Origin: Candidatus Eisenbacteria bacterium
GTDB lineage: Bacteria; Eisenbacteria; RBG-16-71-46
Direction: 5' to 3'
NCBI GenBank assembly: GCA_020847735.1
Contig: JADLBL010000005.1
Coordinates: 1 to 48,811, forward strand
Length of the DNA stretch: 48,811 bases
Under the pieces are notes generated by a model that ran no database searches, was not told the DNA's origin, and saw only the letters and a list, made by a program, of their open reading frames with translations. Of the stretch, positions 1,030 through 6,545 are shown piece after piece; position 1 is the first letter of the stretch, and each line of letters opens with the position of its first letter. Made by a program: the position numbers and the translations under genes.

Positions 1030-1375
1030 AGGCCGGCTCGTGCCGGCCACGCGCGAGACCTCTCGGCATGACCGGCAAAACAATACAAAATAACAAGTTA
1101 CATGGCTGGCGCGCCATTGGCTGCCATGCCGTGGTGGTGCCGAGCATCGCCATCCCGGCCCCCGTGTGGATAACCTGTGGAGGACACACCTATCGACGAC
1201 ACTCAAACCTCTTGTTCGCTTGGCTTTCCATAGTTTCAGTTCAATGTGAGTAGTTCCCGCTTCAGGTTTCCACAACCGCCCCCTCCCCAAGGCCCGCGAC
1301 CGCGATTGAACGCCGTTCTCGCCGCCTCGAACCCTGTGGAGAAAGCTTCAAACCATTTCTGCAAGGACCGTGGAT
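1030..1375. other. dnaA upstream region with DnaA boxes (left half of a possible bipartite origin)
   Basis: There is no gene between 893 and 1375. A palindrome GCCATGCATGGC lies at 952-963 and a GGCCGGC-TCGT-GCCGGCC hairpin at 1031-1048. An AT-rich stretch at about 1075-1102 is conspicuous in this GC-rich DNA. TGTGGATAA at 1165-1173 is an exact reverse-orientation DnaA box, TGTGGAGGA at 1176-1184 is a weaker neighbour, and TGTGGAGAA at 1335-1343 has one mismatch just before dnaA. This supports DnaA binding, either for dnaA autoregulation or as one lobe of a bipartite oriC. The dnaA start is decided by AAGGA at 1363-1367. Confidence 0.65.
1165..1173 (-). promoter_or_regulatory. Consensus DnaA box
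   Basis: The complement reads TTATCCACA, an exact match to the standard DnaA box. A degenerate copy follows two bases later at 1176-1184. Confidence 0.8.
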
Positions 1376-2773: not shown

Positions 2774-3000
2774 GCGGTGAGTAACCTGTGGACGGCTGGG
2801 GAGAACGGCTCCCGGGTCGGAAGTGCGTCGGAGGGCGGCCGGTTTGTCGTGGAAAGCGCGGCGCTTGTCCACGGCCTGCCGGATCGCCCGAAGACCTTGA
2901 CCACAAGGCGCTTGGCGCGGTCCTCGTGCCGATCTCCACAAACTCCACGGCGCCTACTACTACTAGGTTTCTAATTACTTGAAAAAACAAGTAGTTAGAA
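2774..3000. other. Putative oriC core: DnaA boxes, GC cluster, CTA triplets, AT-rich inverted repeat
   Basis: The dnaA-dnaN gap has the layout of a bacterial basal unwinding system. DnaA-box-like sites are TTGTCCACG (2865-2873, one mismatch), TTGACCACA (2897-2905, one mismatch) and ATCTCCACA (2932-2940, two mismatches). A short GC cluster (2948-2953) follows. Then come four CTA triplets at 2954-2965, which on the opposite strand are the TAG repeats of a DnaA-trio. Next is an AT-rich segment with an 11-bp inverted repeat, CTAATTACTTG (2971-2981) and CAAGTAGTTAG (2988-2998), whose arms pair with one G-T wobble across an A6 loop. The order box, GC cluster, trio, AT-rich matches the known architecture. 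Function is inferred. Confidence 0.75.
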
Positions 3001-3024
3001 GCCTTTCCCTGGGCTTGAAATCGC

Positions 3025-3053
3025 TTGCAGCCCCGGTATTCGCTGCCTATGAT
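3025..3053 (+). promoter_or_regulatory. Probable sigma-70 promoter of dnaN
   Basis: TTGCAG (3025-3030) and TATGAT (3048-3053) are 17 bases apart. The -10 matches the consensus at five of six positions; the -35 keeps TTG. The predicted start near 3060 gives a leader of about 90 bases before dnaN. Confidence 0.55.
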
Positions 3054-3149
3054 GCAGCCGCCTTCCTCCAAGCCCCTTCGCGCGGCCCGACTCGCGACGG
3101 CGGAAGCTGCGGAACGACATGAAGTTCCTACTTGTCAGGGAGTGACCGA

Positions 3150-6545
<3,396 letters not shown>

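Follow-up and report, generated by a model that had tools for sequence, protein, structure and literature searches.

A probable basal unwinding system between dnaA and dnaN of Candidatus Eisenbacteria and a conserved opposite-strand motif at its far edge

The window, that is, the whole stretch of DNA analysed here, is the complete 48,811-bp contig C5 of a bacterial genome available as 27 contigs (3.66 Mb), for which a DnaA comparison gives MAGs of Candidatus Eisenbacteria as the nearest named relatives. The genes dnaA and dnaN are followed by dciA, which adjoins dnaN and encodes a helicase-loader domain, and 3' of dciA gyrB and then gyrA were identified by reading (Table 1). The DnaD domain (PF07261) was not found in the Eisenbacteria genome by a search that gave control matches in B. 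subtilis and L. lactis, and the DnaD-domain protein of a DnaD recognition element (DRE) system is thus missing.

Table 1. Features of the dnaA-dnaN locus, with positions in the window (a dot marks features without strand)
Feature	Position	Strand	Basis or remark
Two DnaA boxes 5' of dnaA: TGTGGATAA perfect, TGTGGAGGA 2 mismatches	1165-1184	-	box scan
Further DnaA boxes upstream of dnaA	1266-1274 and 1335-1343		box scan
dnaA	1376-2773	+	PF11638, PF00308, PF08299
DnaA box TTGTCCACG	2865-2873	+	2 mismatches to TTATCCACA
DnaA box TTGACCACA	2897-2905	+	2 mismatches to TTATCCACA
Better BUS box ATCTCCACA	2932-2940	+	2 mismatches to TTATCCACA; 13 bp to trios
Weak tandem BUS box AACTCCACG	2941-2949	+	4 mismatches, which PMC8287927 allows for a tandem box
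GC spacer GCGC (4 bp)	2950-2953	.	sequence
Four DnaA-trios: CTA on top strand, 3'-GAT-5' on bottom strand	2954-2965	-	sequence
Least stable 40 bp of window, presumed unwinding segment	2958-2997	.	duplex stability
Inverted repeat (arms 2965-2981 and 2988-3004)	2965-3004	.	AT-rich segment
Opposite-strand trio-like motif TAGTTAGAAG	2992-3001	+	position conserved across class
Presumed dnaN promoter (CTTGCAG, 17 nt, TATGAT)	3025-3053	+	family conservation by reading and profile
dnaN	3150-4301	+	PF00712, PF02767, PF02768
dciA, helicase-loader domain	4313-4573	+	PF05258; adjoins dnaN

DnaA boxes were counted as sites with at most two mismatches to the reference TTATCCACA, and the numbers expected were derived from dinucleotide shuffles. 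The dnaA-dnaN gap contains four such sites against 0.38 expected (maximum 3 in 200 shuffles), and the region upstream of dnaA contains another four against 0.68 expected, one of them perfect; thus the locus is rich in boxes on both flanks of dnaA. The better of the two boxes next to the trios is directly abutted by the weak box AACTCCACG. Just 3' of the dnaA stop codon, at 2777-2792, lies a conserved GTGGA-N-A-N-CC-N-GTGGA pair of reverse-oriented box-like sites.

The trio array corresponds exactly to CTACTACTACTA, which has one other copy in the 3.66-Mb genome; this second copy (contig C11) was rejected as a trio array, since it sits in a coding stretch and encodes YYYY. Nowhere else in the 48.8-kb window does a strong trio array have a box of at most two mismatches 16 bp away or less. 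The presumed unwinding segment has a duplex stability of -43.3 kcal/mol against a window mean of -65.7 kcal/mol (sd 4.1) and a GC content of 25% against 71%. At its far edge lies an inverted TAG motif, TTAGAAG in the window's family and TAGTTAGAAG in the window, where it forms an inverted repeat with 2965-2981; read 3' to 5', the top strand here gives GAAGAT, i.e., two trios directed back into the bubble. The weak tandem box, the inverted repeat, and the TAG motif were all absent from the preliminary description of this DNA.

In a set of 47 genomes of the class the region 3' of dnaA was read in 43 loci, and a box with a trio array was found there in 39 of them, ten arrays having been re-anchored manually where the automatic score picked a neighbouring position. 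No array was found in L034, L036 (G035), and L121 (G027), where dnaN does not stand beside dnaA in the available sequence or the contig ends. In a genome of the same family (G016; L015/L044) the dnaA-dnaN gap is devoid of both boxes and trios; it keeps the right-hand half (TTCTTATTG...GGTTAGAG), which may reflect either a natural deletion or a fault in the assembly. Within the family the mean identity is 0.74-0.78 in the 20-bp blocks spanning 2934-2993, which is above most of the gap except its two ends. In the family the dnaN leader at 3114-3147 (ACATGAAGTTCC...GTCAGGGAGTGACC) also ranks with the most strongly conserved stretches of the gap and could be a leader or a translation-control element, for which Rfam gave no match.

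According to the published rule for the basal unwinding system (BUS), a box with at most two mismatches lies 0-16 bp from the trios or is accompanied by a weaker tandem box, and at least three trios (3'-NAN-5') follow, GAT being typical nearest the box; in the same survey the better box most often lay 13 bp from the trios (PMC8287927). At the Eisenbacteria locus the box ATCTCCACA with two mismatches lies 13 bp from four 3'-GAT-5' trios, with AACTCCACG as a tandem box of four mismatches; CTA is on the strand of the TTATCCACA-type boxes, the boxes are 5' of the trios, and the segment beyond is the least stable of the window. The preliminary description had placed box-like sites at 2865, 2897, and 2932, a GC cluster, CTA triplets at 2954-2965, and an AT-rich segment in the order of a Bacillus-type origin, and each of these elements was recovered at its position, the layout being backed by order, spacing, strand, class-wide conservation, and duplex instability and weakly by local GC skew. 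Against it count the facts that the boxes are two-mismatch sites, that the perfect box sits upstream of dnaA, and that G016 has neither boxes nor trios. On balance, the stretch 2865-3001 is very probably the unwinding half of the chromosome origin and a BUS, as judged from its anatomy and conservation. The further proposal that such a layout would be noteworthy in a Gram-negative-type, GC-rich lineage is outdated, since 85% of 2,070 origins were predicted to carry a BUS, which was also demonstrated in the Gram-negatives H. pylori, S. elongatus, and D. radiodurans (PMC8287927). Thus the system is of a known kind, merely extended, as expected, to one more uncultured candidate phylum.

The GC skew gives weak support for an origin at dnaA. 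In the window it switches from negative to positive close to dnaA; in G005, a relative of the same family, the minimum of cumulative skew over 87 kb falls at the end of dnaA. Among other relatives G026 is locally consistent, G009 weakly so, and G001 flat, and G032, a relative available as a single contig, showed no switch at dnaA in a coarse sampling of twenty 20-kb pieces. Because of this mixed picture the support for the origin is positional and comparative. The result for G032 could be taken to favour a true origin elsewhere, for example, on contig C8, where half of the six DnaA boxes of the genome that match TTATCCACA perfectly form a cluster (three sites at 122.5-122.9 kb). There, however, the GC skew changes from positive to negative, the wrong direction for an origin, and a neighbouring serine-recombinase-like gene (by reading) gives the cluster a mobile-element-like context, on which grounds C8 was rejected as an alternative origin; an origin away from dnaA is regarded as very improbable. 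In its own right, the C8 cluster (L003-L005 of genome G000), with three perfect boxes and serine-recombinase-like and HTH genes, looks like a box-carrying mobile element.

Across the class the position of the opposite-strand motif is conserved. Counted from the first CTA, 31 of 38 class genomes have a TAG that begins at +30 to +43, against a shuffle mean of 11.9 (maximum 22 in 2,000 shuffles), and 26 of 39 have one that begins at +36 to +42, against 6.5 (maximum 17 in 2,000). These figures overstate the independent evidence, because the position windows were picked once the alignment had been viewed and one family supplies 18 of the 39 genomes. When all triplets were scored in all 7-wide windows, TAG was the joint commonest (27), tied with TCT near the trios; with one genome per family the signal was weaker but retained (8.2 of 11 against 4.6, P 0.009). 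As a fairer control, 25 trio-bearing origins outside the class were scored with the same window, and TAG at +30 to +43 was not above chance among them (8 against 6.7, P 0.34). An opposite-strand TAG as a general property of the BUS was rejected on this result.

Two observations outside the class may be added. In Nitrospinota (L046, L050, L059, and L073) the element AATAGTAAT is constant at +43/44 from the first CTA, an opposite-strand TAG within one narrow group only. In Nitrospirota (L087 and L110), where the array is upstream of dnaA, AGAAGAAG-like purine runs lie on the opposite strand beyond the trios, possibly as a parallel case.

In one other family of the class (L123, L124, and L128) the TAG is followed, at the standard BUS spacing of exactly 13 bp, by a reverse-oriented box with one or two mismatches; in shuffles an equally good box anywhere at 0-16 bp appeared in 1-3% of cases for each locus. 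L119 has a mirrored box 9 bp beyond the TAG. No mirrored DnaA box beyond the TAG was found in the window or its family, and as a class-wide feature such a box was rejected, the mean mismatches being 3.89 against 4.14 in shuffles without significant excess; hence it is confined to a few relatives. In the open-licence PMC literature, as far as searched, the class-specific opposite-strand motif is undescribed, and neither a description of a convergent second trio set nor a paper on Eisenbacteria origins was found there.

The conserved motif could also be explained without any second contact, by a plain Bacillus-like BUS in which TTAGAAG is the conserved edge of another feature, such as an upstream element or a regulator site belonging to the dnaN promoter, and this explanation falls only a little short of an even chance. 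It is favoured by the missing mirrored box in the window's family and by a conserved promoter-like CTTGCAG-N17-TATGAT, seen by reading and profile 18 or 28 bp beyond TTAGAAG in the family; in the window this presumed promoter did not reach the threshold set for the consensus scan. On the other hand, TTAGAAG holds its place at +40/41 from the first CTA in the family while the promoter distance shifts by about 10 bp between subgroups, and the TAG motif is also present in families with dnaN several hundred bp further off. A hairpin or cruciform formed by the inverted repeat, which would keep the bubble open or receive the primosome, is improbable: the hairpin is strong in the window (z -4.15) and in L008, L009, L012, L027, and L030, but over 39 relatives the mean z is -0.44 and six values are below -2, the TAG being retained nonetheless, so that as a conserved feature it was rejected. 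A terminator and a known RNA family were rejected likewise, as the scan for terminator-like sites and the comparison with Rfam families returned none. Thus the conserved thing is the motif and its distance.

The mechanism proposed for the BUS at 2865-3001 begins with DnaA, which would nucleate on the tandem boxes at 2932-2949, aided by neighbouring boxes. The DnaA oligomer would then spread across the GC spacer onto the bottom-strand trios and from there melt the AT-rich 2958-2997, where DciA may assist helicase loading in the opened segment. TTAGAAG, at its roughly fixed distance, would offer DnaA or the loading machinery a further contact, on the top strand; that this right-hand motif acts in strand capture is a tentative suggestion from its conserved position. 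Equally speculative is the complete arrangement with two convergent DnaA-trio elements, one per strand at the edges of the AT-rich segment, in which DnaA and DciA might capture both strands for DnaD-independent loading of the second helicase and mirror-image BUS copies (TAG and box at 13 bp) would persist in some relatives. A DciA lineage with no DnaD domain and with a positionally conserved opposite-strand trio-like motif provides a concrete and testable alternative to the role proposed for DnaD in Bacillus.

Among the known systems the Gram-negative BUS of H. pylori, S. elongatus, and D. radiodurans likewise consists of a box and trios, which were shown to be required for strand separation there (PMC8287927), whereas the Eisenbacteria BUS is predicted from its sequence. 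The B. subtilis oriC BUS (DnaA-boxes 6/7 and DnaA-trios; PMC6669920, PMC8287927) shares with it the tandem boxes and the short GC spacer, the top-strand CTA trios (5'-CTACTATTACTTCTACTA-3' in B. subtilis), the AT-rich DNA, the placement between dnaA and dnaN, and boxes 5' of dnaA; the B. subtilis origin is bipartite, and the Eisenbacteria locus similarly has boxes on both sides of dnaA. The Eisenbacteria system differs in its weaker boxes, its very GC-rich host, the replacement of DnaD by DciA, and the added motif on the opposite strand, some 40 nt away from the first trio. In B. subtilis the DRE lies opposite the trios and was proposed to guide loading of the second helicase via DnaD (PMC10201434). 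Both the DRE and the Eisenbacteria motif are thus on the strand opposite the trios; the DRE, however, is formed by the complementary sequence of the trios themselves and is recognized by DnaD, whereas the Eisenbacteria motif, in a genome with no DnaD domain, is a separate element about 40 nt away.
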